A stretch of DNA of 64,000 nucleotides, taken from Oleiharenicola sp. GTDB taxonomy: Bacteria; Verrucomicrobiota; Verrucomicrobiia; Opitutales; Opitutaceae. The position numbers were made by a program, and so were the translations under genes. Shown in pieces: positions 1 to 21,464 of the stretch (position 1 is the stretch's first letter; each line of letters begins with the position of its first letter). The stretch lies in the NCBI GenBank assembly GCA_025363455.1, contig JANYDW010000016.1, forward strand, positions 62,001 through 126,000. Reading direction: 5' to 3'. The notes under the pieces were generated by a model, which was not told the origin of the DNA, did no database searches, and saw nothing but the letters and a program-made list of their open reading frames with translations.

Positions 1-190
1 GCACGCAGGCGGCATCGGATGGCACTTCACCCAAGACTCGCCCCCAAGCATCGGTAATCTCCCAGTAGTGCAGCACAAATCCCGGTCCGAAATGTTCCTT
101 CAGTATATTCCGGATACTGACGCCCGCAGTCTTGGGAATATGTATGCTGAGATATTGGCTACGAGTTGTTGAAGGGCCGGAGTTCATCAT
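1..190 (-). CDS. Sulfotransferase family protein, N-terminal fragment (runs off left edge)
   Basis: Reading the minus strand from an ATG at 190 (a second ATG follows at 187) gives an open frame to base 1. Residues about 14-28 read YLSIHIPKTAGVSIR, which matches the 5'-phosphosulfate-binding P-loop (HIPKTAG-S/T) of Sulfotransfer_1/2-type enzymes that move sulfate from PAPS to carbohydrate. Only about 63 residues are in the window, so the 3'-phosphate-binding motif and the acceptor region are not visible. It lies 115 bp downstream of the APS kinase gene on the same strand, and that kinase would supply PAPS. Family assignment rests on one motif, but the motif is specific and the context agrees. 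Confidence 0.72.
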   Translation of the reverse strand, partial: MMNSGPSTTRSQYLSIHIPKTAGVSIRNILKEHFGPGFVLHYWEITDAWGRVLGEVPSDAACV

Positions 191-305
191 TAGTTAGAAT
201 GACAATTGTTGATCACAAAACTGCTATTCGGTGGCCCAACCGAATAACAGCAGACGCCAGGCCAAAGCCTAGGTTACGACTTTGACCACTTGGTCTAACA
301 ATTGT

Positions 306-848
306 TCAATCCAACCGGTCGCGACAATACCCTTCCAACTCAATGAGTAGATCGTTAGCCAAACGCAGGTCGGTCGGCACTCGCAAATCATGTGCCGTTG
401 GCGCCTCGAAAACTGAATCCATTCCTGTAAGCAGAGGCAATGTTCCCGCCGCCGACCGCTGGTAGAGACCCTTGGGATCCCGCTGCTGGCAAACCGCGAG
501 CGAGGCATCCACCCAGACGAGATCGAGATGGTCTTGCCCCACGATTTCCCGCACGAGACTCCGCAAGGTCTCCCGGGGCGTGATGAAAGCAGCGACCACC
601 ACCTGACCCTGCGCTGTCGCAAGTGCGGCTAGTTCCGCAGCCCGCCGGATATTTTCCCAACGGGCCTCGTCGGTAAATCCCAGATCACGGCACAGTCCGG
701 CCCGCAAGGCATCCCCATCCAGCAGCAATACCGTCCGGCCCTGATTCCGCAATATTGCCGTCAAGCCCGTGGCAAGCGTGGTCTTACCCGCACCGCTCAG
801 GCCAAAAAACCAGAATACATGACCCGGTCGCATAGGCTCAATTGACAA
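306..848 (-). CDS. cysC: Adenylyl-sulfate (APS) kinase
   Basis: Cytoplasmic kinase that phosphorylates APS to PAPS, the donor for sulfotransferases. Length (180 aa) is that of stand-alone CysC. A Walker A P-loop GLSGAGKTT is near residue 17. DGDALRAGLCRDLGF, ENIRRAAELA and the FITPRETLRSLVR region follow in the order of APS kinases, and a lid-like DPKGLYQR is near residue 124. The frame opens with TTG at 848, overlapping the ATPase gene by 11 bp. An ATG at 833 (starting MRPGHVFWF) lies just after the ATPase stop and is an equally good start, giving 175 aa. It is the fifth gene of the minus-strand exporter operon. Being tied to an exporter and a sulfotransferase rather than to cysteine synthesis genes suggests sulfation rather than assimilation. 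Confidence 0.88.
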   Translation of the reverse strand: MSIEPMRPGHVFWFFGLSGAGKTTLATGLTAILRNQGRTVLLLDGDALRAGLCRDLGFTDEARWENIRRAAELAALATAQGQVVVAAFITPRETLRSLVREIVGQDHLDLVWVDASLAVCQQRDPKGLYQRSAAGTLPLLTGMDSVFEAPTAHDLRVPTDLRLANDLLIELEGYCRDRLD

Positions 849-1539
849 ATTCCCCGTCGCGCATCGGCTTGATCTCGTCGCAGCGGTTGGCGATGTCCGG
901 ATTGTGGGTCACCAAAACCACCGCTTGGCCATTTTCCTTGGCCAACCGGGTCAAGAGGTCGAAAACTATGCCCGAATTCTTCGCATCGAGGTTCCCGGTC
1001 GGCTCGTCGGCGAGGATAATGGCCGGCTGGTTGGCCAGGGCGCGGGCGATGGCGACGCGCTGTTGTTCACCGCCGGAAAGCTGGGTGGCGAGGCGGTGCG
1101 TCTTGTCGCCCAAGCCGACGTCATTCAGCAGCGAGGCGGCGCGCGCTGCCATCTCGTCCTCGGCCAGCTTGCCCAGTTTCCGCATGGGCATCATCACGTT
1201 GTCGAGGGCGGAGAATTCCTGCATCAGGAAGTGGAACTGAAAGACAAATCCGATGTGCTCGCCCCGGGCCGCCGTGCGGTCGGAGTCACTGCTATTCGAC
1301 ATCAGCTGGTCGCGGATCCAGATGGAGCCGTCATCCGGCCGGTCGAGCAAGCCGAGGAGGTAAAGGGTCGTGCTCTTGCCACAGCCGGAAGGACCGACGA
1401 TTGCCGTGACATTGCCGCGCCGGGCCTCGAAGGACACGCCACGAAGCACGTGCACCCTCCCCTCCCCCTGACCGAGATAGCGGTGCAGATTGGTGCAGCG
1501 CAGGGCGATATCCGCGGTGCTATTTACCTTGGCGCTCAT
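838..1539 (-). CDS. ABC transporter ATP-binding protein, MacB/LolD type
   Basis: Nucleotide-binding subunit (233 aa) of a MacB/LolD-type mechanotransmission ABC system at the inner membrane. Walker A is GPSGCGKST near residue 49, the signature is LSGGEQQRV near 153, Walker B is ILADEPTGNLD near 173, and the H-loop is LVTHN near 208. Spacing is that of the LolD family. Its ATG overlaps the stop of the permease gene by 4 bp (ATGA), which implies translational coupling. With the adjacent FtsX-like permease, HlyD-like adaptor and TolC-like channel it forms a complete tripartite efflux or export machine. The substrate is not visible in the sequence. Confidence 0.93.
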   Translation of the reverse strand: MSAKVNSTADIALRCTNLHRYLGQGEGRVHVLRGVSFEARRGNVTAIVGPSGCGKSTTLYLLGLLDRPDDGSIWIRDQLMSNSSDSDRTAARGEHIGFVFQFHFLMQEFSALDNVMMPMRKLGKLAEDEMAARAASLLNDVGLGDKTHRLATQLSGGEQQRVAIARALANQPAIILADEPTGNLDAKNSGIVFDLLTRLAKENGQAVVLVTHNPDIANRCDEIKPMRDGEFVN

Positions 1540-2795: not shown

Positions 2796-2819
2796 AGCGG
2801 GCCGGCGTCCGGGGCGCGG

Positions 2820-3959: not shown

Positions 3960-5308
3960 TTGATCGCCAGGTTGGCCAGCACCGGGTCTTCGCGCACGAT
4001 GCCGAGAAAGCTACTAACCTGATTGAGGCAATCCGCCCTCGAAGTGCAGGCATTGATCTGGGCATCGTAGAAGTTCAGCCGCGCTGCGTTGACATCCTCC
4101 TCCGCGATCACGCCGCGGGTAAACTGTTCGTTCCGATAGTTCAGGTTGCCTTCGCCCGATACAAGCAACCGATCGGTGATCGAGGCGTTCCGGAATGCGA
4201 AACCAATGACGCGGGACTGATTCTGAGCCTGCTGGCCAAGGTTCTCGGTCAACGCGCGATAATCGAGTTCCAACTGCCGGATCCGGGCGAGCGAGTTACG
4301 GACAGCAGCACCGGAGGCCAGGCCGTCGAAGATGGTCCAATAGATCGATACACCGCCGTAGTACGAGTTGACCTGATATTTTTGCGCCACATTCAGCGTG
4401 TAGCTCTGCTGATCCTGACTGGCGGCCACCAAAAGGTTGAATTTTGGCTTCAAGCGATTCTTCTGGGCCAGGAGGCCGAGACGTTCGATTTCCTGCTTTT
4501 TGCGCATTTCCTCGGCCTCGGGCGTGGCCGGGTCTTTTTGCGCGAGAAAGCCGGCGAGCAGCCGTTGGACGGATGGGTTCTGATCAGCAACCTCCGGGAT
4601 CGCATCCGGAATATCGTTGTCGTTCAGGACTGGGTCGCCCGTCAATCGGGCAAAGCTAGCCTTCATGCTTTCCGCTTCGAAATTGACCCGATCCCAATAA
4701 ATCTGCGCACGTTCGGCATCCAGGCGGATGCCGAAGATCTGGGCGTCCGAGATAACTTTCTTCAAGAGGCGTTCTTCGGCCTGGCGTTGGAGTTTTCGCG
4801 CCGCCTCGGCACTGAATTGCGCTTTCTTTTGGTAGAGCTTGTTCAAGATCAAGCGGAGATAGATACCGCGCAGCTCCTGCGCCAACAACCGGTAGGCCTC
4901 TCGCACCTGGCCTTGGGTGATCGCCTGTTGAATCTCACCAATTCGAGCTCCATTGCGTCGGTCACCCCAGTAAAAAAGGGGCTGATTGATGCTGAAGCTG
5001 TAATATACCTTGGTAACAGGGATCCGGCCATTCAGGTCAGCTCGGTCGTCCTGTCCCTTATAGTAGCTGTAGCTGCCACCAATGCTCGGCAGCATGCCTG
5101 CCCGGGCTGAAATCCGGTTGTTCTCCGCTATCTCCAGATCGATGGCCCGGCCGATCATCCGGGGGGACCGGGCAACGGCCCGCTTGAGAATGCCGTCCAA
5201 CTGCGGAAACAATTGCTCGGGGGTGGTGATATTGTCCGCTGCCGATGCCATCGCGCCGAGCCCGGCGAGCAGGAGCGGCAGGGCCGCGAAAAGTCTCGGT
5301 ATTTTCAT
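3956..5308 (-). CDS. TolC-family outer-membrane efflux protein
   Basis: Outer-membrane channel component, 450 aa from the ATG at 5308. That start begins MKIPRLFAALPLLLAGLGAM and gives a classic signal peptide with a cleavage site near ASA-AD (about residue 23). The frame stays open upstream to 5671, but that extension is low-complexity E/R/K/G text read from a repeat tract and should not be annotated. The body is helical, with YYSFSINQPLFYWGDRRNG in the first half and two OEP-like repeats. It is the first gene of the minus-strand operon, overlapping the adaptor gene by 4 bp. With the other three genes it completes a type I-like or MacAB-TolC-like exporter. Confidence 0.88.
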   Translation of the reverse strand: MKIPRLFAALPLLLAGLGAMASAADNITTPEQLFPQLDGILKRAVARSPRMIGRAIDLEIAENNRISARAGMLPSIGGSYSYYKGQDDRADLNGRIPVTKVYYSFSINQPLFYWGDRRNGARIGEIQQAITQGQVREAYRLLAQELRGIYLRLILNKLYQKKAQFSAEAARKLQRQAEERLLKKVISDAQIFGIRLDAERAQIYWDRVNFEAESMKASFARLTGDPVLNDNDIPDAIPEVADQNPSVQRLLAGFLAQKDPATPEAEEMRKKQEIERLGLLAQKNRLKPKFNLLVAASQDQQSYTLNVAQKYQVNSYYGGVSIYWTIFDGLASGAAVRNSLARIRQLELDYRALTENLGQQAQNQSRVIGFAFRNASITDRLLVSGEGNLNYRNEQFTRGVIAEEDVNAARLNFYDAQINACTSRADCLNQVSSFLGIVREDPVLANLAIK

Positions 5309-5479
5309 GGGATAGAGGAAGACAGGCCGCCGCAAAGCCCGTGCCTTGGCAATCAGGAAATTTTTGCTAATCACCATGGTTGAAGCGGGTTCCCTAGGTT
5401 GGATTGTCATGGGCAGGCCGCCTGCGCTGCGCCAGCAATAGCTGAAGGTTGAGAGCCGGAGGTTAAGTACCGAAACCTC

Positions 5480-5672
5480 CGCCGTCCGTTCCGCCTCCGT
5501 CCTCTCAATTCCCCTTTCTCTGTCCTCCGTCATCCGTCCTCTGTCTTTCGTCTTCTGTCCTGCTCCCTTCTCCTTTCTCCCTTCGCCTTCCGCCGCTTTC
5601 CGCCGCTTTCCGCCCTCTGACGTACGTCCTCTGTCCTCTGTCATCCGCCGTCCGCCCTCCGCCCACCCCACC
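5480..5672. repeat. Degenerate polypyrimidine tract (CCTCTGTC/CCGTCC-type short repeats)
   Basis: About 190 bp of almost pure C/T text on the plus strand, built from variants of tcctctgtc, tccgtcatccg, ccgccctccg and tcgccttccgccg. It explains the spurious N-terminal extension of the tolC-like frame. A sister tract lies at about 6405-6565 on the other side of the vapBC pair. No coding potential is evident. The rest of the tolC-vapB gap (5309-5480) holds nothing I recognise beyond the presumed minus-strand promoter region. Confidence 0.7.
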
Positions 5673-6566: not shown

Positions 6567-7379
6567 ATGCTCCGCCGCCTCGCCCCCTTCGCCGCCGATC
6601 TCTGGCAGCATCGCGAACTTCTGTGGCAGTTCACCCTGCGCAATGTGGAATTACGCCACAAGGGTAGTCACCTCGGCCTGATCTGGTCATTGCTCAATCC
6701 ACTCCTGATGCTCGGGCTTTACGTGTTGGTGTTTGGCTACATTCTCGGTGGCACATTTGGCGTGTTGCCCAATGAAACGAAGGTGGAATATGCTCTTGGG
6801 ATATTCCTCGGGCTGACTATGTTTCATATCGTGGCCGAGACCCTCAATGTTTCGCCTACCCTGATTGTAGGAAACCCCAATTTTGTGAAGAAAGTGGTTT
6901 TCCCCTTGGAAATCTTGCCCGCCGCAAGTGTCGGTGCCGCTCTCTTTCATACATGCGTTAGCCTGACCTTGGTGCTGGTCAGTATATTAATGTTCGGTCC
7001 CGGGCTCTCTATAACAGCCCTATGGTTGCCGGTTATCCTTGCGCCATTGTTTCTACTTTGCCTGGGCGCGAGCTGGTTCCTTTCTGCCTTCGGTGTATTT
7101 TTTCGTGATGTCGGACAAGTCATGCAGTTCATAACAATGGCACTCATGTTCTCTAGTGCCGTGATGTATTCCGCAGCGAAAGCCCCGGCCAGTGTCTGGA
7201 TATATTTGCGCTTCAACCCAGTGTTGCTGTCAGTCGAAATGGCCAGAGACGCTGCACTCTGGCAACATCCACTCAAACTAAACCATCTGGCCTACTTGTA
7301 CGCCTTCAGTTTGGCCGTCTGTTACCTCGGACATGCCGCCTTCCTGAAAATGAAACCAGCCTTTGCTGATGTTCTTTAA
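6567..7379 (+). CDS. wzm: Polysaccharide ABC exporter permease (Wzm type)
   Basis: Inner-membrane permease of 270 aa (ABC-2 type) that moves undecaprenyl-linked polysaccharide to the periplasm. An amphipathic N-terminus (WQHRELLWQFTLRNVELRHK) is followed by six hydrophobic segments at about residues 35-60, 72-92, 115-140, 150-180, 185-210 and 235-257. The KGSHLGLIWSLLNPLLML stretch is characteristic of the Wzm/TagG family. The matching ATPase (wzt) is at 11094, two genes downstream rather than adjacent. It starts the plus-strand glycan operon. Confidence 0.93.
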   Translation: MLRRLAPFAADLWQHRELLWQFTLRNVELRHKGSHLGLIWSLLNPLLMLGLYVLVFGYILGGTFGVLPNETKVEYALGIFLGLTMFHIVAETLNVSPTLIVGNPNFVKKVVFPLEILPAASVGAALFHTCVSLTLVLVSILMFGPGLSITALWLPVILAPLFLLCLGASWFLSAFGVFFRDVGQVMQFITMALMFSSAVMYSAAKAPASVWIYLRFNPVLLSVEMARDAALWQHPLKLNHLAYLYAFSLAVCYLGHAAFLKMKPAFADVL

Positions 7380-7703
7380 CGAGTGAGAGTTGAGCGTTGT
7401 AGGTACAAAATTCAATCGTTCAGCATTAACAGCTGCCACCTCAGCCTAACGCGGGCCTTAAGTAGCCGAATGGATACAAGTATCGCTCGGTTCACCCTCA
7501 ATCATTAGTCCTGTACTCATGGCTTACCTAATGGCTTGTTTTTCTATCCATATATACTGTTTTTTCAGGGCTCTGGGACTAACCCATCTGCGTCTATTTC
7601 CCTCGAGGGCTACGGTCAGATTTCACCCATCCCCTCTTGCCGAACTGCAGCACGAAACGATCAACGAGACAGTTGCGCCGGAAGCATTGTAAAACGCAAA
7701 CTG
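7380..7703. other. Non-coding gap between wzm and the double glycosyltransferase
   Basis: About 320 bp with no convincing gene. A frame in phase with the downstream gene opens at 7536, but its product before 7704 has no family resemblance. The stretch is AT-richer than its neighbours (for example ttttctatccatatatactg near 7539) and could hold a promoter. No clear hairpin terminator was seen. Confidence 0.5.
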
Positions 7704-10163
7704 ATGCCGAGGATCCTCTACATAACAACAGAGTTGCCTTATTTCCCGGGTCAGGGGGGATTGATGTCACTTCACATGCGCCAGCTGGCGCAAGAAGAGA
7801 TTGTCGGGGTCTTGGGCCCTCGCTATCCTCATCAGCCCGAAGACTCATTACAAAAGCTGCGAGATACCGTGCAACGATCTTACTGGTGGCCGGAACATCC
7901 GGTTCCTGGGCCCTATCCTGCTTTGAGTGCGAAGCCTCCTCGCTGGCCAGTAATGATTAAACGGCTGCCGAATGGGATCAAACGCTGGTTGATCCGGAGA
8001 TTAACCGGAATGTACCGTTATTCCGATGATGCGGTGGCTTGGCGACAAGTGCTGGTCAACTTAGCACCCAAGATTCTTGAGGCTCTCGACCAAGAGTATT
8101 GGAATGTCGTTCTGCTCTCGCAATCAACTTCGGCCGGTTGGCTGCCCTTTCTGCCCGCCAGCCTGGCCCGATGCATCGTCTTGCATGATATCCGATCAGA
8201 TTATCTTCAGCGCTCAGCGAATCGGCTTTCAAGCCGCAACCTGGAGGGGGTGCGGCTCGAAGAGTCGATTGTGGTCCAAGAAACGGATGCCATTGTCGTG
8301 CTCTCGGCGCTGGACCATGAAAGAGCAAACACTCAGCTCCAGCCGGTGGCACCCATCGCTATCGCTCCCATCTGCCTTGATCTCGACTATTTCGAATTTC
8401 AGCCCTCTTCAAATGCGGGGTCTCCAGTCGTATTGTTCACCGGGCACCTCTCGCATCCACCCAATGTGGATGCCGTGCTATATTTCTTAGATTCGATCTG
8501 GCCACGAATTTTGGCGGCCCAACCGGAAGCAACGTTCAAAATCGTCGGCCTGCACCCATCGCCAGTGATCGCAGAAACGGTCACCCGCGCGCTTAGGGTC
8601 GAGCTTATTCCCAATGTGCCGGATATCCGGCCCTACTACCAAAGCTCTAGGGTATACGTCGTCCCGATGCGTTATGGCGGTGGTGTCCGGCAGAAAATCC
8701 TAGAAGCTTGGGCTGTCGGGCGACCGGTGGTGACCACCACCATGGGAGCGGAAGGCATAGCTGCCCATGACGGGGAAAATTGCTGGATCCGCGACGAACC
8801 CGCTTCGATCGCTGCTCAGGTCGTTGAGCTGTTGCGCGAACCCTGCCCCGCCACTGTGTTGCGAACCGCTCGGTCCTTAGTGGAAGCCCAGCATTCCCCT
8901 CAGGTGGCTTGTCCACCTTTGGCAACCCAGCTCAAGGTCGCGGCGAGCCGGAGGCGGCAATCCCCGCCGCGGGTTCTCTATGATCTGCGCTGGCTTGTAC
9001 CGGGCAAAGTAGGCGGCGTGGAGCAAATGACTCGTGAGTTGGTGGATGAGATTGCGAGCTTTGATCGCACCTTCGAATATCGCTTCCAAGGTCACCAACG
9101 GGTTTTTCGCGACTGGCGCTTTCCCTCTGGCTTTAAGCACAAGGTCGTCTGCTCGGATGGCCCGGCAGCCCGGCGGATGGCCTGGCGTGATGGCTTGGTC
9201 AATCAACTGACAGCCGAACTTGCCTGGCCCCCGCTCATGTCGCCCGAATTGAGGGCGCTCGAATGGTATACCCGGCTGGATTTCACTGTGGTTCATGGCC
9301 TCCCCTGTTTGGTTCATCCGGATTTACGCCGTTTCCCATCGGTCGTGACCATGCATGACTTGCAACATCTGCATCGGCCGGAGTTTTTCAGCCCTGCTGA
9401 CATTACCACTCGCGAAAGGGAGTACCGGGAATCCTGCCACCGCGCTAGCCATGTCATCTGCACATCGGAATTCACCCGGCAGGATGTCCACCGCCGCTAT
9501 GGCATACCGCTGGATAAAATGACCACGATCTGGAATTTGCCGCCCCGCCAGACCGGTACAAATCTGGGGCCGACCACTCTGCGGCGTTTGCTACAAGGCA
9601 TGGGCATCAAGCCGCCCTTCTTTTTTTATCCCGCCGCGCCCTGGCTGCACAAAAATCATCGCGGACTGCTTGATGCCATGCTGCTCTCCGACAGAGCTTT
9701 GCCTGCTGACTATAAACTTGTCATGACCGGTCAGCCCTTCTCCGCTGATCACCCAGCGACCAGCTTGCTACTGGACCCCCGGTTGCGCAACCGTGTAGTG
9801 CACTTGGGCTACCGCTCAACTTTAGAAATTACTGCCCTTTATCGTGCGGCCGAAGCCCTGATTTTCCCCTCCCTGTTCGAGGGGTTTGGCATGCCGATAA
9901 TCGAAGCGATGCAACAAGGCTGCCCGGTTGTCTGCGGGCAGCATACCTGCCTGTCTGAAATCGCTGGCGATGCCGTGCTCTACACCGATGTGGCGTCGCC
10001 GGATGCCATCTCCGCTGCGATCCTCCGTATCATTGGCGATGACCCGCTGAAGGCAAAGCTCCGACAGAGCGGCTCAGTCAATCTTCGACGATTCGACCGG
10101 CGAAGCCTGGCTGAAAAAACCCGTGCGATCTACGCGTCAGTCCATGCCGAGCATTTTGACTGA
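7704..10163 (+). CDS. Double glycosyltransferase (two GT4 / GT-B domains)
   Basis: Cytoplasmic enzyme of 819 aa from the ATG at 7704 (MPRILYITTELPYFPGQGG), chosen because homology-like text begins there. The first GT-B domain covers about residues 1-395, with a GT4 C-terminal motif around residue 317 (VPMRYGGGVRQKILEAWAVG). The second covers about 424-815, opening RVLYDLRWLVPGKVGGVEQM, with the sugar-nucleotide motif FPSLFEGFGMPIIEAMQQG near 716. Two full GT-B units in one chain imply a bifunctional transferase adding two sugars, or a polymerase-like alternation as in WbdA. It sits between wzm and wzt, where chain-elongating mannosyltransferases usually lie. Donor and acceptor are unknown. 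Confidence 0.88.
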   Translation: MPRILYITTELPYFPGQGGLMSLHMRQLAQEEIVGVLGPRYPHQPEDSLQKLRDTVQRSYWWPEHPVPGPYPALSAKPPRWPVMIKRLPNGIKRWLIRRLTGMYRYSDDAVAWRQVLVNLAPKILEALDQEYWNVVLLSQSTSAGWLPFLPASLARCIVLHDIRSDYLQRSANRLSSRNLEGVRLEESIVVQETDAIVVLSALDHERANTQLQPVAPIAIAPICLDLDYFEFQPSSNAGSPVVLFTGHLSHPPNVDAVLYFLDSIWPRILAAQPEATFKIVGLHPSPVIAETVTRALRVELIPNVPDIRPYYQSSRVYVVPMRYGGGVRQKILEAWAVGRPVVTTTMGAEGIAAHDGENCWIRDEPASIAAQVVELLREPCPATVLRTARSLVEAQHSPQVACPPLATQLKVAASRRRQSPPRVLYDLRWLVPGKVGGVEQMTRELVDEIASFDRTFEYRFQGHQRVFRDWRFPSGFKHKVVCSDGPAARRMAWRDGLVNQLTAELAWPPLMSPELRALEWYTRLDFTVVHGLPCLVHPDLRRFPSVVTMHDLQHLHRPEFFSPADITTREREYRESCHRASHVICTSEFTRQDVHRRYGIPLDKMTTIWNLPPRQTGTNLGPTTLRRLLQGMGIKPPFFFYPAAPWLHKNHRGLLDAMLLSDRALPADYKLVMTGQPFSADHPATSLLLDPRLRNRVVHLGYRSTLEITALYRAAEALIFPSLFEGFGMPIIEAMQQGCPVVCGQHTCLSEIAGDAVLYTDVASPDAISAAILRIIGDDPLKAKLRQSGSVNLRRFDRRSLAEKTRAIYASVHAEHFD

Positions 10164-10218: not shown

Positions 10219-11091
10219 ATGAAAATCCTTTGCCTCTTTGTCCGGCATGGCACTGAGAAATACCCTGACGCCTTGGCGGAGCTAGACCAGTGGTATGCCC
10301 GCCACGGGTTGATGGGCCAGCGAACACTTTGGATCATCGATAACGCCCTGGATGCCGGATTCCGGCCACAAGTTCTGGCCCTAGACACGCTTTTGCGTGC
10401 CGGGGATAATCAGGCGTGGGAATTCTCCGCCTGGGCGCACGCCCTGCGTGATGCAGAGGTTGAGCAGATTGAATACGACGTCGTTCACTTTGTTACTTCA
10501 GCGTTCAATACGTTGTATACTACCTATCTTGGCCATTTCTGCGCCGAAATGCTGCCATACGTGAAGACACATAATGTGTGTCTGGGGCATATCGACGGCT
10601 ACGACCAGCCAGTTGAGCTGGCCGGCAGTATTTCCAGATTCTGGATCAGGACCTGCTTCTTTTTTCTCCCCGCCGGAGTTATCTCCCGGATTGCCACATG
10701 GGCAGCCTTCACCGATCCGAAGGCCATATTCTCCTCCCATGAGTCGACCGAATTTCGGCCTGATGCGCCGCTGTCGCCCGATTATCAACGGCGGATCAGA
10801 ATCTGGCTAGAAGGTCAGGATGTCGGTGGTCATACTTGGCATTCCCCTATCGGTTCCGATCCGGGTGAAGTCGGGCGGTTCCAAAAGAAAACTCTAGCCA
10901 TTCTTAACGAGCACAATTTCTCTGTCACTCTTCGCCGATTGCCTACTCCGTTGGTTGACTACTGCTGGCTCTGGAGTCAGCGCCATGAAACCAGCTTACA
11001 GCAGCTCGCTGTCCCGGCTGAGACAGCTCAGCTTGCAATTCGTCGTCGCATTCTTGGTATCTCTCCCGAGTCTTTGCCCGTTTCCCAGTAA
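10219..11091 (+). CDS. Uncharacterised protein of the polysaccharide export cluster
   Basis: I do not recognise a family. The 290 aa start MKILCLFVRHGTEKYPDALA, with a Rossmann-like opening strand and then YDVVHFVTSAFNTLYTTY and a hydrophobic, aromatic stretch near residues 140-165 (FWIRTCFFFLPAGVISRIA). The C-terminal third is soluble. A length under 300 aa and the position between a GT and wzt (2 bp before the wzt ATG) suggest a small sugar transferase or modifying enzyme, but no DxD or nucleotide-binding motif is clear. The gene is surely real given the tight spacing and continuous frame. Confidence 0.75.
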   Translation: MKILCLFVRHGTEKYPDALAELDQWYARHGLMGQRTLWIIDNALDAGFRPQVLALDTLLRAGDNQAWEFSAWAHALRDAEVEQIEYDVVHFVTSAFNTLYTTYLGHFCAEMLPYVKTHNVCLGHIDGYDQPVELAGSISRFWIRTCFFFLPAGVISRIATWAAFTDPKAIFSSHESTEFRPDAPLSPDYQRRIRIWLEGQDVGGHTWHSPIGSDPGEVGRFQKKTLAILNEHNFSVTLRRLPTPLVDYCWLWSQRHETSLQQLAVPAETAQLAIRRRILGISPESLPVSQ

Positions 11092-11093
11092 AC

Positions 11094-12491
11094 ATGCCAG
11101 CCCCACCCCCAGAACAAGCCAACGCCATCGAGGTCCATGGCGTCTCAAAGTGCTACCGACTCTGGCACGACTCGAGCGGGCCTGTGCAGTATGGGCTTGC
11201 GTCGGTTCTCAACACCCTGATCGGCCGCCGCGTCAATCCCGTGAAATATTTTAGGGATTTTCACGCCCTAAATAATGTTTCGTTTACGACGAAACGCGGC
11301 CAGTCTTTCGCCATAATCGGACGCAACGGCTCGGGTAAGTCAACCCTGCTGCAAATCATTGCTGGTACATTGCAGGCGACCGCGGGGACCGTGCGGGTGA
11401 ATGGCAGAGTGGCCGCGTTGCTTGAGCTGGGCTCGGGTTTCAATCCCGAGTTTACGGGCCGGGAAAACGTTTTTCTTTACGCGTCGATCCTGGGACTTAC
11501 CCGATCTGAAATGGAACAGCGGTTTGAGTCCGTGGCGCAATTTGCTGACATCGGAGAGTTCATGGAGCAGCCAATCAAAATCTACTCCAGTGGTATGGCC
11601 CTCCGGCTGGCCTTTGCCGTCATTGTGCATATTGACGCCACCGTGCTGATCATAGACGAGGCCCTGGCGGTTGGTGACGTCTACTTCATGCAGAAATGCA
11701 TGCGCTTCCTGCGCGATTTCCGGGAGCGCGGCACCCTTCTATTCGTCAGCCATGACATGGGTTCGGTTCGTTCCCTTTGCGACTCGGCCTTGTGGCTGGA
11801 ACAGGGTGCCACCCGCATGCACGGAAATGCACAGGATGTCGCCGCCGCCTACCTGGCCGAATCAAATCTTAGCCAGAAGAACAGCGAGGTTGTTCAGATC
11901 AAATCCTTCCGGACCGAGCCGGTGGTGCCCACTCCGCCCGCTCCACCAACCGGACAGTCCTTTCGCCTGCCCGTGGTTGCCGTGGAAAATATCCTCACTT
12001 TGTCGGGATTTAATTCCCTCTCTTCCGGGTTTGGTGACGGCCGAATCAAGATCATTGATGTCCAGTTCATTGATGCACAGGGGGCTCGTCTTCACACCAT
12101 CAGAGGAGGAGATGTCGTCTGCCTGATGATCACGGCCCAATGTGTCGAACCAACCGGCAATGTGCTTTTTGGGTTCAACTTAAAAGATCGCCTTGGCCAG
12201 CACCTGTTCGGCGAAAATACGCATCAGTGTGTCCCTGCCACAGAGATCGCCATGCACCTTGGTGAATGCTACCGGGCTCGATTCACTTTCCAAATGCCGG
12301 TGCTGCATCAAGGGCAATACACCATTGCGGCAGCAGTCGCCTCCGGCACACCCGGAAATCATCGCCAGCAGCAGTGGCTCCATGAAGCATTGGTACTTTC
12401 TTCGGCGACAGATTGGGCACATGCCGGACTGGTTGGGTTGCCCATGCTCGGTATTACGGTAGAGAGGCATGAACCAGCTGCTGGGATATAG
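11094..12491 (+). CDS. wzt: Polysaccharide ABC exporter ATPase with C-terminal carbohydrate-binding domain (Wzt type)
   Basis: ATPase partner of Wzm, 465 aa. Walker A GRNGSGKST is near residue 76, the signature YSSGMALRLAFA near 164, Walker B LIIDEALAVGD near 185, and the switch His in FVSHD near 218. A proline-rich linker (about 270-295) leads into a beta-sandwich of about 165 residues. This extra domain marks the O9a/O8-type Wzt, which binds the modified non-reducing end of a finished chain before export. Its presence predicts that this glycan carries a terminal mark. The next gene overlaps its end by 23 bp and encodes candidate marking enzymes. Confidence 0.94.
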   Translation: MPAPPPEQANAIEVHGVSKCYRLWHDSSGPVQYGLASVLNTLIGRRVNPVKYFRDFHALNNVSFTTKRGQSFAIIGRNGSGKSTLLQIIAGTLQATAGTVRVNGRVAALLELGSGFNPEFTGRENVFLYASILGLTRSEMEQRFESVAQFADIGEFMEQPIKIYSSGMALRLAFAVIVHIDATVLIIDEALAVGDVYFMQKCMRFLRDFRERGTLLFVSHDMGSVRSLCDSALWLEQGATRMHGNAQDVAAAYLAESNLSQKNSEVVQIKSFRTEPVVPTPPAPPTGQSFRLPVVAVENILTLSGFNSLSSGFGDGRIKIIDVQFIDAQGARLHTIRGGDVVCLMITAQCVEPTGNVLFGFNLKDRLGQHLFGENTHQCVPATEIAMHLGECYRARFTFQMPVLHQGQYTIAAAVASGTPGNHRQQQWLHEALVLSSATDWAHAGLVGLPMLGITVERHEPAAGI

Positions 12492-15147
12492 AGCAATGCA
12501 ACAAAAGAAACGAAGGGACCAAAATCAGCAGCACAGGAAGTCCGGGCCGACCGTGCCACCACCTGCTGCCGGTGCGCCCTCCCGGACCATTCTGCTGCAC
12601 TATCATATTTTCAAGAACGGCGGCAGCACGTTGGATGCCGCGCTGAGAAAAAACCTTGGAACCGCCTGGCGGGAAATCGAAGGCGATGACCCCAACGGTC
12701 CCATGAATTGGTCGCTGGCAATTGCCTTGTTGAAGAATTATCCGGAAATCAAGGCTCTGAGTTCACACACTGCCCGGATTCCGCCACCTGCAAGTCCAGG
12801 GTATAACTTCATCCCTCTGTTTTTGATCCGCCATCCCTTGGATCGAATTCTTTCAGTTTACCACCATGAAAAGCGAAACCTGAACCGCCACGTCCACCCG
12901 GCACTCGAAATTGCCCGCACCGCCTCCTTGCTAGATTTTATCCAACTTGCGATGGGAAAAATTCCCGCTGTCGTTTGCAACGCACAGACTTCCTCGCTTG
13001 CCCGGGGTGGAGTATATTTCTTCCCACCAGTCGCGGCTGATCTGGTCAAGGCCAAGGCGGCGGTCGCTCAGTCCATAGTCCCAGGAGTTCTTGAGCGGAT
13101 GGACGAGTATTTAACTCTTTTGGAGAGAGAGCTCACTGGTCTGGTGCCGAATCTCGACCTGGCTTGTCACGATGAGAACCGGAATCCGACGCGCCGGCCC
13201 ACGCTGCTCGCTCGCCTGCGGGAGATTCGCACCTCGTTGCCGCCCACACTTTGGCGGGAGCTGCGCGAGCGCAATCGACTCGACCTTGAACTTTGGCGAT
13301 TTACCTATCGTCTCGCACGCACCAAGTTTTCCCAAATGCCCGATGCCACCAAACGCCTAGCCAGCTTCCGCCAGCGCAAACTTCGTGGCAGCCCTCCGGC
13401 GGATCTGCCTTGGACAGGTGAAAGATTGGTCGCCTCGGCTACCGGAGATTTTGTGGCGGAGCATCTTCATCGCTACGCCCTCGCCTTGGAGTTTGCCAAA
13501 AACTGTGATGTCTTGGATGTGGCCTGCGGCGAGGGCTACGGCAGCGCGTTACTCACCAAGGTTGCCCGCAGCGTAATCGGCGTGGACTGCGATGCACCGA
13601 CCATCGCCCACGCCTGGGCCAAATACCGGGCAAAAAACCTTCAATTTGCCGAAGGTCGGGTGGAAAAATTACCTCTGCCTGCAAGCTCGGTCGATCTCGT
13701 GGTAAGTTATGAAACACTGGAACATCTGGAAGATCACGACGCCATGATGAAGGAGATCAAGCGTGTCCTGAGGCCGGGCGGCCGGCTGCTCATCTCCACC
13801 CCCAACAGCAAGCCATACCGCAAGGTCTCCGGTAAGCTGAATCCATTTCACCTGCGCGAACTGGACCTGCCGGGCTTCACAAAACTTCTGTCGAAACATT
13901 TCAAACATGTAAATGTGAGCTGCCAGCGATCCGTAACCGGATCTTGGATCTCCCCTTTGGATGCCCGGGCTGTTCCCACGACCGAGTATTCAGGCAATTT
14001 TGAACAACTGAACGAATTAAAATCGGACACTGACACGCCCTACTTGATTGCTATCGCCTCCGATTTAGCGGTGCCAGCCCTACCCACCAGTCTCTTCAAT
14101 TCCAAGGCGGAGTTACTCACCCAGATACAAGGCTTGATGGAAGAGCGCGAGCGCGAGCGTAAATCATTCGCGAGTTTAACGACAGATTTCGGAGAACGCA
14201 CGACATGGGCCAAGTCCTTGGAAAATGATCTGCGCACTGCCCAAGAACGCTTTGATAAACTGACAAAGGAATACGCCGAACGCACCACTTGGGCCCTCTC
14301 GCTGGAAGACGAATTGAGGAGGTCGCACGCTACTGTCGATAAACTGACAAAAGAATACGCCGAACGCACCTCCTGGGCCCTCTCGCTGGAAGACGAACTA
14401 AAGAAGTCCCGCGCCGCCGCCGCGACTCAAGCCCAGTTGCTCAAAGAACGCACGACATGGGCCAAGTCCCTGGAACATGAACTGCTCACAGCCCAAGGTA
14501 ATTACGCCAAGCTCGCCAAGGAGCATGACGAACGCACCTCCTGGGCCCTATCCTTGGGATCTGAATTGCAAAGGGCTCGCGACGCTTGTCAAGAACAGGC
14601 ACAAGCTGCCACTGAGCTTTCACAAGAAAGAGATCGACTAAACACGGAAATCGCTGATCTGAGTTGTCTCAGTGCCAAATTGAATCTGGAACTCACCGGC
14701 CTCCGTGCCGCCTGCGCGGAATTGGTGCCCTTGATACCCGCAGACCCCGGGAAAGGAGAACACGCCCTCTTGGAGCAATGTATGATTGCTCTGGCTAACT
14801 TGCGCCGTGACCTCGCCTCCAAAAATGCAGAGCTCCATGCGGCAATGGCTAACGGCGTTGAGACCCAGCTCCGTGCTGACGTCACTGAATCGGAAGTTGT
14901 CCGTCTGAACATCGCCCTTAAAGACGCACAACTGCATCTGGATGGTTTGCTGAAGCACACAGCCGACTTGCAGCAGTGGACAAACACCCTCGCGGCGGCC
15001 AAGCAAGACATCGAACACCAGTTTACTTCGACCATCGCGGAACTCCAGGCCGCGCGGCTTGAGCTTTCTCGTTATGAAAGCCGGTTGATTTGTCGTCTGG
15101 CGGCGCGTGCGCCGGCAGCGAAATCGGTGGCCTCACCCCGCTCATGA
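12469..15147 (+). CDS. Sulfotransferase-methyltransferase-coiled-coil fusion (candidate chain terminator)
   Basis: An 892 aa three-part protein. Residues about 38-290 resemble Sulfotransfer_2: IFKNGGST (about 47-54) fits the 5'-phosphosulfate loop and [16 protein letters not shown] (about 120-135) the 3'-phosphate site. Residues about 314-530 are a class I SAM methyltransferase ([15 protein letters not shown] near 346, [13 protein letters not shown] near 412). Residues about 545-845 are charged helix with five repeats of ER-T-[TS]-WA-[KL]-SL-x-x-EL near 577, 604, 631, 660 and 688, spaced 27-29 residues. A short basic tail follows. An alternative ATG is at 12496. By analogy with WbdD of E. coli O9a it may cap the growing chain with sulfate and/or methyl and measure length with the coiled coil. 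Confidence 0.85.
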
Positions 15148-17792
15148 TCATGCCGACTGCCCCAAGACGCGCGTTTACCTACGCTATCGATTCTTCGGGA
15201 GCCTTGCAGGCGCCCGAAGGATTCCTCCAGCTCAGCGGATGGATTGCCGGTGTGTTAACCGCGGGCGCGCAGGTCAGGTTGCGGCTCGGCCAGAGCAGTC
15301 TGTTTGACTGTCGCACCGGGGAAGACCGGCCCGATGTAGTGGCCGCGCATCCCGATCTGCTAGGTGCAGCAGAAAGTGGCTTCCGACTGGAAACACATGT
15401 GCCGCCAGGTTTTCATATTGGCACCCTCGAGTATCGCCTTAGCGGGCAGGGCGACTGGATTCCCTTCCACACCCTGAGCCTCATTGCGGGACTAAGTCCG
15501 CTTTCGGTTCAGCTGGAAAGTGCGCCTTTAGTCGAGGACCCCAAGGAGTGGTATGTGCAAGGGTGGTGTTTCCACCCGCAATGCGACATTGAAAGTGTGA
15601 CCATCCAATTCGCCCACCAGCAGGCTTTGCTCCAGCATGGCGGGCAGCGTCCGGATGTCGCCAGCCTTCACCCGCAATTTCGCTCGGCCGCAAACTCAGG
15701 TTTCACCGGTCGTTTCCCGATGGAACCTGGGCATGGGACCGTAAACCTGAAAGTGAAGCTGAGCAATGGCTCGGTACTGCAGCAGGTTTTGCTGCCCGCG
15801 CTGACAGTTCCGAATCGGGATTTGGAGCGGGCTCAGCAGCTGGCTGGCAAGATCCGGGCCGCCCGGATCAAACTCCCCGCCCCGGAGCAGCCCGATGTTT
15901 CCATTATCATCCCCATCTACAACCAGCTGGATTTCACCTTGGGCTGCCTTGAATCCCTGGTGCGCCACGCCGGCCAGACCAGCTCAGAGGTGATTATCAT
16001 CGACGACAAATCCGATAAGTACGTTCCAGAAACCTTATCCTTGGTCAGTGGCTTGAAGGTGTTCTCAAATGAGCACAATCGCGGCTTTGTGCTCAATTGT
16101 AACCGCGGTGCCGGCATGGCTCGCGGTAAATACGTGCTTTTTTTGAACAATGATACTGAAGTTCAACCCGGGTGGTTGGAAGCCTTGCACGATACCTTCA
16201 CTCGCTACCCCGATGCGGGCTTGGTGGGGGCGAAATTGGTCTACCCCGACGGTCGTTTGCAGGAAGCCGGCGGCATTCTGTGGAATGACGGCTCGGCTTG
16301 GAACTATGGCCGCAACGATGACCCGAGCAAGCCTGAGTATAATTATGTCCGTTGGACTGATTATTGTTCGGGGGCCTGTATCATGCTGCCCCGGGAGCTC
16401 TTCGCCCGACTGGGAGGATTCGACGAACGGTTTGTCCCGGCCTACTGCGAGGATTCCGACCTCGCCTTTCAAGTACGCGCCGCCGGCTATCAAGTTTACT
16501 ACCAACCTCGAGCGGTGATCATCCATCACGAAGGCCAAAGCAATGGGACGGATACGTTTGGCGGCATCAAACGCCATCAGGTGGACAACAGTGTGAAACT
16601 CTTCGCGAAATGGCGCGGAGTGCTCAGCAGTCAACATCGCCCCGGCGGAGTGGATGTCTTCAGAGCCCGCGAACGAAGTCTGGATCGCAAGGTGATTCTC
16701 TTCGTCGATCACTATCTGCCCCACTACGACCGCGACGCCGGCTCGCGGACGATCTGGTCTTACCTGGAATTCTTTCTCGAGACCGGATTCTCGGTGAAAT
16801 TCATAGGACACAACTACTTTCCGCATGAACCCTACTTCACCGAAATGCAGCAAAGGGGCATTGAGGTATTGTGCGGCACTTGGTACGCGAATCACTGGGA
16901 ACAGTGGCTCGAGCAGGTCGGTTCATTGATCGAATATGTCTTTTTCAGTCGGGCGCATATTGCGATTAACTACCTGCCTGCTTTCCGACGCAAAACCACG
17001 GCCAAAATTATGTTCTATGGGCACGATTTGCTATCCCGTACCTTCGAACATGAGTATCAAGTAACGGGCGATTCCAAGGCCCGGGAAGCCGCGGCAAAAT
17101 GGATGGCCCTCGAGAATGACGTGTTCAGCCTAGTGGACGTGGCCTACTATCCCTCGGGCGAAGAAATCAACCACCTGGTGCAACACCGGCCGGGCCTGCT
17201 CGCGCGGCAGCTCCCGCCCTATGTTTTTAAACGGATCACCCGGGATGATTATGCCACCACTTATCCCCAGCGAGCCGGTCTGCTTTTTGTGGGCGGATTC
17301 GGTCATCCGCCCAACGTTGATGCCATGCTTTGGTTCACGCGGGAAATCTTGCCCACCATCCTGCAGCATTATCCGGCCATCCGCCTAACGATCGTGGGTT
17401 CCAATCCCACACCCGAGATCACGAGCCTCGCCAGCTCGACGATCAGCGTCACTGGTTATGTTTCGGATCAACGGCTGGCAGAATTATATGCCGCGCACCT
17501 GCTGGTGGTGGTGCCACTAAGAGTCGGAGGAGGCATCAAGGGCAAGGTGGTGGAGGCATTGTGGCATGGGTTGCCTGTCCTGACCACCCCGGTGGGGGCC
17601 GAGGGTATTCCCTCGGCCGCCTCCTGCATGCAGATTGCCGCACTCGATCAATTTGGCGGGGCGCTTCTGTCTCTGCTCGGCAATACAGAGCAATTGGCCC
17701 GCCTCGCCCAGGCTGGCAGTGCTGTCCTTGCCGAACACTACTCAAGCGCAGCATTGCGCCGGGTCTTCAGCCAGGATATAGATTTCTTCTAA
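15144..17792 (+). CDS. Two-domain glycosyltransferase (GT2 + GT4) with paired N-terminal GW-RPD modules
   Basis: An 882 aa protein starting at an ATG that overlaps the previous stop (ATGA at 15144-15147). Residues about 10-110 and 115-220 are two beta-rich modules, each with a GW, a central RPDV (nt about 15328 and 15650) and a later SGF. Residues about 250-500 are a GT2 domain: [19 protein letters not shown], metal-binding LNNDTE, GGFDERF and [13 protein letters not shown]. Residues about 514-880 are a GT4 domain ending with [20 protein letters not shown]. It probably adds two sugars at the cytoplasmic face of the membrane. The same module reappears in four other proteins of this window. Confidence 0.88.
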
Positions 17793-17793
17793 T

Positions 17794-18828
17794 ATGCCCG
17801 TCCTTTACCGTTCCCGCGCCCCCCTGCGTCTTGGCTTGGCTGGTGGGGGGACCGATGTTTCCCCCTACAGCGACGAGTTTGGTGGCTGTGTGTTAAACGC
17901 CACCGTCAACCTCTATTCTTACTGCACCATTACGCCGGCGGATGATGGGCAGGTGGAATTTCATGCGCCTGATCGCAGGGAAAAGTTCAACACTCTGGCG
18001 CCCGCCGCATTACCCTTGGAAGGATCCCTGCCACTCCACAAGGCGATTTATAACCGCATTGTGCGCGAATTCAATGCCGGCCGGCCACTACCCTGTCAGA
18101 TTACGACCTACTCAGACGCCCCGGCAGGATCGGGGTTGGGCACTTCGTCCACCATGGCCGTGGCCATCTTGGGCGCGTTCACGGAATGGCTCAAACTGCC
18201 ACTGGGTGAATACGAGCTAGCCCACCTAGCCTTCGAAATCGAGCGCCTGGAACTTGGATTAGTTGGGGGCAAGCAGGATCAATACGCGGCAGCCTTCGGC
18301 GGTTTTAATTTCATGGAATTTAATGCGGATGACCGCGTGATCGTGAATCCCTTGCGCATCCGCGCCTCGACGCTCAACGAACTTCAATCCAGTTTGATCC
18401 TCTACTATACCGGTGTCTCGCGCGACTCCTCCAAGATTATCGCCGAACAGATCCGAAATGTAACCAATAAGGCGGCTGATTCCGTCAATGCCATGCACAG
18501 AATGAAGACCGATGCCGTCCAAATGAAGGAGCACCTGCTGCGGGGCGAATTGCGGTCCTTTGCCCAGGTCCTCGGTCGGTCCTGGGAGGCGAAAAAGCGG
18601 ATGGCTACGGTTATTAGCAATCCACAGATCGAAGAGGTCTTCGCGGCCGCCCGGCAGGCTGGGGCACTTTCCGGCAAGGTGTCAGGCGCCGGCGGCGGCG
18701 GTTACATCATGTTTATGATCGACCCCTGCAAACGTGAAGAAGTCACCCAGGCGCTGAGTGTATTTCCAGGAAATGTTCACCGCTTTCAATTCACGCCGCA
18801 TGGCGTGGAGACGTGGAGCATCCGCTGA
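17794..18828 (+). CDS. hddA: D-glycero-D-manno-heptose 7-phosphate kinase (GHMP family), first copy
   Basis: GHMP-superfamily sugar kinase of 344 aa. It opens YRSRAPLRLGLAGGGTDVSP, the N-terminal motif of HddA-type heptose kinases. The ATP-binding PAGSGLGTSSTMAVA is near residue 110, and GKVSGAGGGGYIMF near 290 is GHMP motif 3. HddA phosphorylates heptose 7-phosphate at C1 on the GDP-heptose route. The neighbours gmhA, hddC and gmhB, all within 3 kb, make the assignment firm. It starts 1 bp after the preceding GT gene. Confidence 0.9.
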   Translation: MPVLYRSRAPLRLGLAGGGTDVSPYSDEFGGCVLNATVNLYSYCTITPADDGQVEFHAPDRREKFNTLAPAALPLEGSLPLHKAIYNRIVREFNAGRPLPCQITTYSDAPAGSGLGTSSTMAVAILGAFTEWLKLPLGEYELAHLAFEIERLELGLVGGKQDQYAAAFGGFNFMEFNADDRVIVNPLRIRASTLNELQSSLILYYTGVSRDSSKIIAEQIRNVTNKAADSVNAMHRMKTDAVQMKEHLLRGELRSFAQVLGRSWEAKKRMATVISNPQIEEVFAAARQAGALSGKVSGAGGGGYIMFMIDPCKREEVTQALSVFPGNVHRFQFTPHGVETWSIR

Positions 18829-18837
18829 ATTCGCCCT

Positions 18838-19428
18838 ATGCAAGCCCACGATCTTATCCTTGAGGAACTCCGTTTGAGTCACGAAACGGTGGGGCGTCTG
18901 CTCCTGGAAAGCGAACTGATTAGGCAGATCGAGCTGACCGCATCCGCGATGGTGACCGCCTATCAGAGCGGCGGTAAAATCCTGCTCGCGGGCAACGGAG
19001 GCAGCGCTGCCGATGCCCAACATATCGCGGCCGAATTCGTCAGCCGCCTGAAATTCGATCGCGCTCCGCTCCCCGCCCTCGCCCTCACGGCGGACACCTC
19101 GATTGTTACCGCCATCGGCAATGACTACGGATACGCTCAACTCTTTGCCCGTCAGGTTCGCGCCTACGCACGGAAGGAAGATGTTTTCGTTGGTATCACC
19201 ACTTCTGGTCGCTCGGAAAACGTGCTTCATGCTTTAGCCGTGGCACGAGAGCTGGGGTTGACCACCGTTGCCCTTTGCGGCCAGCCGGGTTTGGCCAACG
19301 GGACGACCTGCGATCATTTGCTGGCTTGTCCTTCTGCCATCACAGCGAAGATCCAGGAGTGCCATATTATCGTCGCCCATACCCTGTGCGGCTTGGTTGA
19401 ACGCGCCCTGTTTCGTCCCCTCGCCTGA
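18838..19428 (+). CDS. gmhA: Sedoheptulose 7-phosphate isomerase, first copy
   Basis: SIS-domain isomerase (196 aa) converting sedoheptulose 7-phosphate to D-glycero-D-manno-heptose 7-phosphate. The phosphate-binding [16 protein letters not shown] is near residue 52, with His and Glu spaced as the metal ligands (HxxxE). SGRSENVL follows near 125 and the C-terminal Q-x7-H ligand pair is in [14 protein letters not shown] near 176. All four ligand positions of characterised GmhA are therefore kept. It lies 9 bp after hddA. Confidence 0.93.
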
Positions 19429-19436
19429 CAATTTCT

Positions 19437-20180
19437 ATGCCGATTATCCAGCACCCCTCCCTCGCGCAACCGCTCGACATTCCGCCCGACCAGGGCGGGA
19501 CGAATCGCGATGAGCTGATCACCAACTACTGGCAGCATCATCCCCGGTTTCGCTTCCTGAAGATGTGCCCGCTCAATTCCCGTTTCTTTGATATTGGCGC
19601 GGGCTCCGGCGGCATGTCCTTCTGGAAGGACTGGCAGACTCCGGTGCGCCTGGATATCGAAATGCACGGTTGTGACCTTTCCCCGGGGCAGTTCGCAGAC
19701 CGTTATGCCGCGTTTCATGTCATGGACTTCGACGGCACGGCTTTCCCGTATCCCGACAATCACTTTTCCGCCGCGCTTTCCTCGCACGTGATCGAGCATC
19801 TGCGCAAGCAGGAAGGTCTGGCCACCGAACTGATGCGCGTCCTGCGGCCGGGTGGCATGGTTTACATTGAAACGCCAACCGACGAATCCTGCCAGTTTCC
19901 GGGCCGGGAGTTTTTCATCGCGAACGGCTGTCCCACCACCACCATCAATTTCTTCGACGATCACACCCACACGACCGCGGTAAGCCGCCAGAAATTGAAG
20001 GATTTGTTCATTCAGCAGGGATTCACTCTGCACGAGGCCGGCACCATTCGAATGCCCTACATGGAAGACCGGATGCTGGCGAAGGCCGTTGCTCAAAACG
20101 ACCAGGAGCTGGGCAGCTATGGTCTCTGGTCCAAGCTAGGCTTCGCCCACTATGCCGTCTTCCAAAAACCTGTTTCCTGA
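19437..20180 (+). CDS. SAM-dependent methyltransferase (class I)
   Basis: 247 aa with motif I FFDIGAGSGGMSFW near residue 49, LSSHVIEHLRKQEG near 117 and VLRPGGMVYIETP near 135, all typical of Methyltransf_11/25-type small-molecule methyltransferases. It sits inside the heptose gene set between gmhA and hddC and overlaps hddC by 29 bp. It probably O-methylates a sugar or the nascent glycan; the acceptor is not visible. Confidence 0.85.
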   Translation: MPIIQHPSLAQPLDIPPDQGGTNRDELITNYWQHHPRFRFLKMCPLNSRFFDIGAGSGGMSFWKDWQTPVRLDIEMHGCDLSPGQFADRYAAFHVMDFDGTAFPYPDNHFSAALSSHVIEHLRKQEGLATELMRVLRPGGMVYIETPTDESCQFPGREFFIANGCPTTTINFFDDHTHTTAVSRQKLKDLFIQQGFTLHEAGTIRMPYMEDRMLAKAVAQNDQELGSYGLWSKLGFAHYAVFQKPVS

Positions 20181-20868
20181 CACCGCGATCATCCTGGTAG
20201 GCGGACGGGGAACCCGCTTGGGTGCATTGACCCAACAGACGCCCAAACCCCTGTTGAACGTGGCGGGTCGCCCTTTCCTGCTTCACGTGCTCGACTACCT
20301 GGTCCGGCAGCGGATCAAAAAAATTCTTCTGGCAACGGGCTACTTGGCCGGGGAATTCGATTATGTGCTGGGCGCGGATTATCGCGGCGTTTCTCTGACG
20401 TATTCTCACGAAGACACGCCGCTTGGCACCGGAGGCGCCATCGCGCTCTCGATGACACTGATCGAGGAGCAGGACGTATTCGTGCTGAATGGAGACACCT
20501 ACTTTCCGGTCGACCTGTCGGAGCTGGCGCAGGTCCAGGTCGCCCGGCAGGCCGACCTTGCCATGGTGCTGCGGCAGATTCCTGATGTTTCTCGCTACGG
20601 GCATATTACCGCGGCGCAGGGGCTCGTTACTGCTATGCACGAAAAGGGCGCGACTGGACCGGGTTTGATCAATGGCGGAATCTATCTTATCAATCGCGCG
20701 TCGTTTCTGGCCGACGCGCCCGCCGGGGCCTTCTCGCTGGAGCGCGACCTCCTGCCTCGCTGGATCCAGCGGCGGGCCGTTGCCAGCACAGTGGCAGACT
20801 GCTACTTCATCGACATTGGGGTGCCGTCCGATCTGGCGCGAGCTCATCAGGATCTGGTCCAAGCATGA
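20152..20868 (+). CDS. hddC: Heptose 1-phosphate guanylyltransferase-like nucleotidyltransferase, first copy
   Basis: 238 aa sugar-phosphate nucleotidyltransferase. The signature VGGRGTRLGALTQQTPKPLL is near residue 15, followed by YSHEDTPLGTGGAIALS near 84 and the metal-binding LNGDTYFPVDL near 112. Together with hddA, gmhA and gmhB it completes a GDP-D-glycero-D-manno-heptose route, so a guanylyltransferase is most likely; the base cannot be read from sequence. The start overlaps the preceding methyltransferase by 29 bp, and the next gene overlaps by 4 bp. Confidence 0.87.
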   Translation: MPSSKNLFPDTAIILVGGRGTRLGALTQQTPKPLLNVAGRPFLLHVLDYLVRQRIKKILLATGYLAGEFDYVLGADYRGVSLTYSHEDTPLGTGGAIALSMTLIEEQDVFVLNGDTYFPVDLSELAQVQVARQADLAMVLRQIPDVSRYGHITAAQGLVTAMHEKGATGPGLINGGIYLINRASFLADAPAGAFSLERDLLPRWIQRRAVASTVADCYFIDIGVPSDLARAHQDLVQA

Positions 20869-21464
20869 ACAAGGCCCTCTTTCTCGATAGGGACGGCACG
20901 CTCATCGCCCACAAACCGTATTTGCACAAACCTGAGGAGGTCGCTCTCCTGCCGGGCACCACGGCCGCCCTCGGCCTGGCCAGAGAGAGAGGTTATCTTC
21001 TTTTCCTCTTCACCAACCAATCAGGGGTGGGCCGCGGCTACTTTAGCCTCGATGACGTCCATCGGGTGCATACTCGGCTCATCGAATTGCTCGGGTTGGG
21101 TCGGGATATTTTCACTGAGATATGCGTCGCACCCGAACATCCCAAAGCGCCTTCCCTTTATCGCAAGCCTTCACCACGCTTCATTCAAGAGATGATCACC
21201 AAGTACGACCTCACTCCGGCTCAATGTTGGATGGTGGGCGATTCAGACTCTGACTGGCGAGCGGGGCTGTCAGCTGGAATCCGAGCCGCGGCCGTGCGAT
21301 CAGATCTAACTTCCGCGACAAACCTCGCGATAGCGAACCAATACTCCATTCTGCTTCACGATGATCTGGGGGCCTTTCTGGCCTCTCAACTACTACCGCC
21401 TGCCGATTCTGCACACCCTGACCCTTCGCGCCCGATTCTCACCCCCAATCCCAACTGCCCATGA
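20865..21464 (+). CDS. gmhB: Heptose bisphosphate phosphatase (HAD, GmhB type), first copy
   Basis: HAD phosphatase of 199 aa removing the C7 phosphate from heptose 1,7-bisphosphate. The nucleophile motif FLDRDGTLI is near residue 6, TNQSGVGRGYF near 51 and MVGDSDSDWRAG near 125. The zinc-loop cysteines of classic GmhB (CxH...CxCRKP) are mostly absent here: CVAPEHPKAPSLYRKP keeps only the first. Overlaps of 4 bp at both ends show tight coupling with hddC and the following methyltransferase. Confidence 0.85.
   Translation: MNKALFLDRDGTLIAHKPYLHKPEEVALLPGTTAALGLARERGYLLFLFTNQSGVGRGYFSLDDVHRVHTRLIELLGLGRDIFTEICVAPEHPKAPSLYRKPSPRFIQEMITKYDLTPAQCWMVGDSDSDWRAGLSAGIRAAAVRSDLTSATNLAIANQYSILLHDDLGAFLASQLLPPADSAHPDPSRPILTPNPNCP

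Follow-up and report, generated by a model that had tools for sequence, protein, structure and literature searches.

The closest described systems are the WbdD-type chain terminators of O-antigens exported by Wzm/Wzt. WbdD of E. coli O8 combines a methyltransferase with a coiled coil and is encoded with wzm/wzt, its Wzt having a binding domain at the C-terminus; in the available part of PMC3482155 it is methyltransferase-only, and no sulfotransferase is described. WbdD of E. coli O9a has two group-transfer domains before the coil, with the kinase C-terminal to the methyltransferase. ORF6 of K. pneumoniae O7 follows the order methyltransferase-kinase-coil-GT2-GT2, and in described terminators the coil bears the catalytic modules at its far end, where they modify the non-reducing terminus (excerpts of PMC11231755). 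The caps named for ABC-exported O-antigens in the available parts of PMC9445017 and PMC11231755 are methyl, phosphate or methyl-phosphate, and Kdo. In Aeromonas salmonicida a standalone sulfotransferase-domain gene of the wbsalmo cluster (ORF19, 216 aa) directly follows wzt, yet no sulfate is reported as detected in the O-antigen in the accessible sections of PMC4483657. No paper combining WbdD, a sulfotransferase and O antigen was found in the literature searched. Titles and the starts of abstracts gave no sulfotransferase-containing terminator; two of the papers listed contain some of the words, PMC13171606 sulfotransferase and coiled-coil once each, and PMC4390846 sulfotransferase and Wzt.

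The window, that is, the whole stretch of 64,000 nucleotides analysed here, encodes an 892-aa candidate chain terminator (12469..15147, + strand). A sulfotransferase domain occupies residues 35-304 (12571..13380, +; Lys49 loop, His100, Arg121/Ser129) and is followed by a class I SAM methyltransferase assigned by Pfam (residues 314-535; 13408..14073, +). Residues 545-870 (14101..15078, +) are predicted from sequence as a coiled coil with prolines at 754-760, and five ERTxWAxSL units of 28 residues (84 bases) each lie within it (14194..14613, +). This confirms the initial annotation in that one protein joins a sulfotransferase, a SAM methyltransferase and a repeat-bearing coil, that its gene overlaps wzt (23 bases in common), and that the layout is WbdD-like, with catalytic domains, then a coil, adjoining a wzt with Wzt_C. 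The same annotation saw a sulfotransferase instead of a kinase. Indeed, no kinase domain of the O9a type was found in the protein among 12 Pfam families at E 0.01; the wording fits better as a sulfotransferase added to a methyltransferase-only terminator. Unlike in O9a WbdD, the extra domain is N-terminal to the methyltransferase, and unlike in K. pneumoniae O7 ORF6, the glycosyltransferase is encoded by a separate neighbour gene. The likeness to O8 WbdD is one of layout.

A PAPS-type sulfotransferase fold, whose absence from residues 1-300 had been named beforehand as grounds against the proposal, is present there. PF03567 scores 22.2 for the domain alone, against a cut-off of 22, and 18.1, under the cut-off, for the whole protein. 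The closest solved relatives are the heparan sulfate 2-O- and 6-O-sulfotransferases, which share the fold, the phosphosulfate loop and the invariant His column; unlike them, the window domain is bacterial, is 12-20% identical to them and is fused to a methyltransferase and a coil. In the alignment K49, H100, R121 and S129 fall in family-invariant columns. We take K49 to be the phosphosulfate loop Lys, H100 the catalytic His, and R121/S129 the 3'-phosphate Arg and Ser; for His-142 of HS2ST, a literature search gave no paper supporting a catalytic role. The loop reads HIFK, where five of seven aligned relatives have Pro (HIPK). The homologue in G699, the best BLAST match among the regions compared (33.6% identity), also has HIFK. 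Relatives of the domain occur in 38 of 252 genomes of the family, its own included (E 1e-5), and in 50 of 384 genomes of the class (E 1e-8), and most bacterial relatives listed are short frames of about 200-350 aa. Among the sulfotransferase frames opened, the window's alone is joined to a match of the window methyltransferase, fusion being checked solely by BLAST with that methyltransferase. One bacterial relative adjoins glycosyltransferase genes on a named plasmid.

The methyltransferase belongs to class I by its Pfam matches (Methyltransf_11, PF08241, 1.3e-24; Methyltransf_25, PF13649, 3.7e-20) and its glycine-rich motif. The name WbdD is absent among its 44 matches and among the 60 of 174 matches listed in a second search. 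A PADLOC match to mad2 spans the methyltransferase part only (residues 335-483), and an anti-phage role was rejected. Neither genome-contig scans nor viral contigs, searched by protein and by alignment, gave a confirmed relative.

The ERT(T/S)WAxSL units begin at residues 576, 604, 632, 660 and 688, a spacing of exactly four heptads, and none of 10,000 shuffled sequences holds one such repeat unit. The hydrophobic share is 55% and 90% at two heptad positions, 45% and 40% at two others and 0-15% at the remaining three. The order of the protein is that of terminators, domains of a chain-end-modifying type and then a coiled coil, with a modest heptad periodicity: for residues 545-870, 13 of 1000 shuffled sequences score as high, and when the whole tail is taken, 31 of 1000 do. 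At the DNA level the units are 48-74% identical to each other; hence the array is old and not a slippage tract, and a DNA tandem repeat was rejected for 14194..14613. Besides itself, the repeat region gave a single weak match in 288 genomes. The tails on homologous methyltransferases measure 121, 235, 337 and 357 residues, and the homologue in G024 carries one ERTxWAxSL-type unit after the methyltransferase. The earlier idea that the repeats are a tunable ruler is plausible: it is borne out as far as tail length varies, and not as far as recent change in copy number, which is absent. With natural tails of 121-357 residues, the ruler idea could readily be tested in bacteria other than enterobacteria.

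Genomes G019, G110 and G089 have the order wzt, methyltransferase with coil (577, 476 and 359 aa, respectively), GT2-GT4 homologue, and in G019 and G110 a Wzm homologue adjoins Wzt. Their coil proteins share an FSWKxTxPLRAxRR ending that is absent from the C-terminus of the window protein, the place where terminators of this class have a helix for docking to the membrane or a partner. In the window the third position is held by a GT2-GT4 fusion glycosyltransferase (15090..17792, +; the true start may be slightly downstream of the TTG), a candidate polymerase partner. In G024 the methyltransferase and GT2-GT4 form one 1150-aa chain with a short stretch between them, which connects the products of the two neighbouring window genes and resembles K. 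pneumoniae O7 ORF6 (excerpts of PMC11231755); no Wzt or Wzm was found in the 19 kb around this gene. GT2-GT4, a neighbour gene in the window and three relatives and fused in G024, may be the polymerase. Since the relatives keep the order of the three genes and G024 fuses the last two, layout and gene order support a WbdD-like terminator. Across nine regions around methyltransferase relatives (L044, L045, L047-L053), a Wzt homologue is found in four and is adjacent in three. The sulfotransferase domain is absent from the terminator-type proteins of G019, G110, G089 and G024. Relatives of it lie on other contigs in G019, G089 and G024, so a separate enzyme may add sulfate in G019 and G089; the G110 genome has no sulfotransferase match at E 1e-5.

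Wzt of the window (11094..12491, +) consists of an ABC ATPase (PF00005) and a C-terminal carbohydrate-binding domain (PF14524; about residues 303-460) and matches A. aeolicus Wzt. With the Wzm permease (6567..7379, +; PF01061; 71-75% identical in three same-genus genomes) it provides the wzm/wzt linkage of a terminator beside the fusion gene. The ATPase domains of all nine Wzts compared are 42-56% identical to that of the window, whereas the C-domain is 39%, 37% and 39% identical to those of G019, G110 and G089 and 17-23% to the six others. From this difference, the C-domain goes with the methyltransferase-coil module and not with the fused sulfotransferase. In the available part of PMC9445017, Aquifex Wzt holds a 3-O-methyl group in a pocket of Leu300, Thr346, Ala348 and Trp362. 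The window Wzt keeps two of the four, Ala348 and Trp362 (W428), while Asn replaces Leu300 and Ala replaces Thr346. The Asn, Ala348 and Trp are common to the window, G019, G110 and G089, and positions 299/300 read Phe and Asn in all four. Elsewhere, a Trp of G553 falls in the Trp362 column, behind a long insert, and Ala stands at 348 in G015. The relatives G019, G110 and G089 all come from a single genus (g20), another one of the same family, so gene order and C-domain pairing make one independent comparison, not three. The pairing gives a concrete prediction of the group that is read for export.

Hence, we suggest, with somewhat better than even confidence, that the protein is a methyl-type coiled-coil terminator of a Wzm/Wzt O-antigen pathway that gained an N-terminal PAPS-dependent sulfotransferase, and that chain ends are probably both methylated and sulfated. 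A methyltransferase-only terminator, as in E. coli O8, would have acquired a sulfotransferase of the heparan sulfate 2-O/6-O type. At the membrane, GT2-GT4 and other glycosyltransferases would extend the lipid-linked chain, and the coil would keep the two catalytic domains off the membrane, within reach only of chains above a minimum length. The methyltransferase would methylate the non-reducing end and stop growth, and the methyl end would be the mark read by the Wzt C-terminal domain for export. The sulfotransferase would sulfate the same end region with PAPS from an APS kinase coded about 12 kb away. Action at the chain end, the order of methylation and sulfation, the setting of length and the identity of the acceptor sugar are inferred parts of this scheme. 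The finding extends the polymerase-terminator model, which would gain a charged cap and a step that depends on PAPS; it is not a new kind of system.

The sulfotransferase could instead decorate sugars along the chain, being tethered to the terminator for nearness to the growing polymer. We consider this rather unlikely. The short frames of most bacterial relatives listed, the one relative beside glycosyltransferase genes and the kinship to heparan sulfate sulfotransferases, which act on internal sugars, speak for such a role; the position of the domain speaks against it, on the same side of the coil as the end-acting catalytic modules of described terminators.

That sulfate itself is the export mark, the Wzt C-domain recognising a terminal sugar that bears sulfate alone or together with methyl, was the view of the initial annotation, and it did not fare well; we hold it to be unlikely. 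The window C-domain resembles those of three Wzts with a sulfotransferase-free terminator, albeit of one genus, one of them in the genome without a sulfotransferase match (G110), and all four keep Ala348/Trp362 of the methyl pocket with the same Phe/Asn. However, sulfotransferases recur beside or near wzt in G015, G551, G035 and G435, G567 encodes a sulfotransferase-Wzt_C fusion, and G019 and G089, whose C-domains resemble that of the window, hold unlinked sulfotransferase genes. The single genus of the three relatives and these unlinked genes slightly lowered our confidence in the methyl-type terminator and slightly raised that in a sulfate mark. The simplest reading of the sequences would be that the export mark is of the methyl type and that sulfate comes in addition to it, sulfate being less likely than methyl as the export mark.

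It is improbable that the fused domain is inactive or has another acceptor (a lipid or core sugar) in what is a plain methyl terminator. The loop Phe and the A. salmonicida precedent of a wzt-linked sulfotransferase point that way, though the G699 homologue has the same Phe. Against it stand the family-invariant motif positions, which the domain retains, and the APS kinase gene of the locus. The fusion, found in one genome only, may be a junction artefact in the contig; its reading frame runs through without a break, with GC at the codon positions staying broadly even, and a frameshifted or non-coding fusion was ruled out.

Thirty sulfotransferase regions were opened, covering 21 of the 37 other genomes with matches and in several cases chosen for long frames; seven hold a Wzt homologue in the stretch. 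Three of these (L217, L219, L228) are of the same genus with the sulfotransferase as flank gene, which leaves four separate cases: G035 (standalone, two genes after wzt), G097, G015 (directly after wzt) and G435. In G015 (L237, 1-6781), a Sulfotransfer_2 gene comes after wzt, as does a GT25 protein that matches a sulfotransferase weakly; Sulfotransfer_3, also matched weakly, adjoins a long protein that by eye resembles a coiled coil. In G435 (L251, 5643-9601), each of two adjacent proteins (611 and 709 aa) has a sulfotransferase domain at its end, with a wzt homologue nearby. In G551 (L236:5210-6037), the gene directly after wzt is a Sulfotransfer_1 gene (E 3.1e-19). The 379-aa fusion of G567 (L215:5915-7054; PF14524 36.6 bits vs 30.4) stands after glycosyltransferase-like genes and is, as judged from its domains, an independent link between sulfation and Wzt-type sugar binding. 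Sulfate as a chain-end group is plausible. Only tentatively do we go further, to sulfate as a previously unrecognised chain-end mark of ABC-exported O-antigens, with a methyl and sulfate cap placed at a length that the coil sets; the sulfotransferases next to wzt and the one fused to Wzt_C in related genomes would then be independent members of a wider sulfate-based terminator class.

The APS kinase (CysC; 306..848, -; PF01583, E 3.9e-47) is the sole match found in its own genome (G000), which is 94.9% complete, so that a second one could be missing. A CysH-like protein (L059) is, by eye, presumably PAPS-type from its cysteine motif, and for this reason the kinase may serve assimilation as well as sulfation. 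A second sulfotransferase gene (223 aa) starts at 1..190 (-), runs out of the window and has the coordinates 1156-1827 in L058; in window 1-5671 (-) and L058, this gene and the APS kinase form a block with genes for a MacB-like transporter, an HlyD-like protein and outer-membrane efflux. Four genomes of the same genus that have a sulfotransferase match (G553, G130, G071 and G551) share the flank of sulfotransferase, macB-like gene and wzm, with much of the block conserved beside wzm and an APS kinase match within the same stretch. Wzt was found in three of the four; its C-domain is 17-18% identical to that of the window, and the genes after wzt differ. By this comparison, the locus is a variable O-antigen cassette next to a sulfation-linked flank.

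Within the cassette, a double GT4 glycosyltransferase assigned by Pfam (7536..10163, +) precedes wzt, and between them lies a 290-aa protein (10219-11091) without Pfam or NCBIfam match. Family matches downstream identify GHMP kinase, SIS isomerase, methyltransferase, nucleotidyltransferase and HAD phosphatase genes (17794..21464, +), which we take to be a GDP-heptose-type pathway. Further on, a 634-aa protein with no Pfam match at E 1 (24226-26130) shares 48.6% identity with a protein encoded in the same G024 locus as the methyltransferase-glycosyltransferase fusion.
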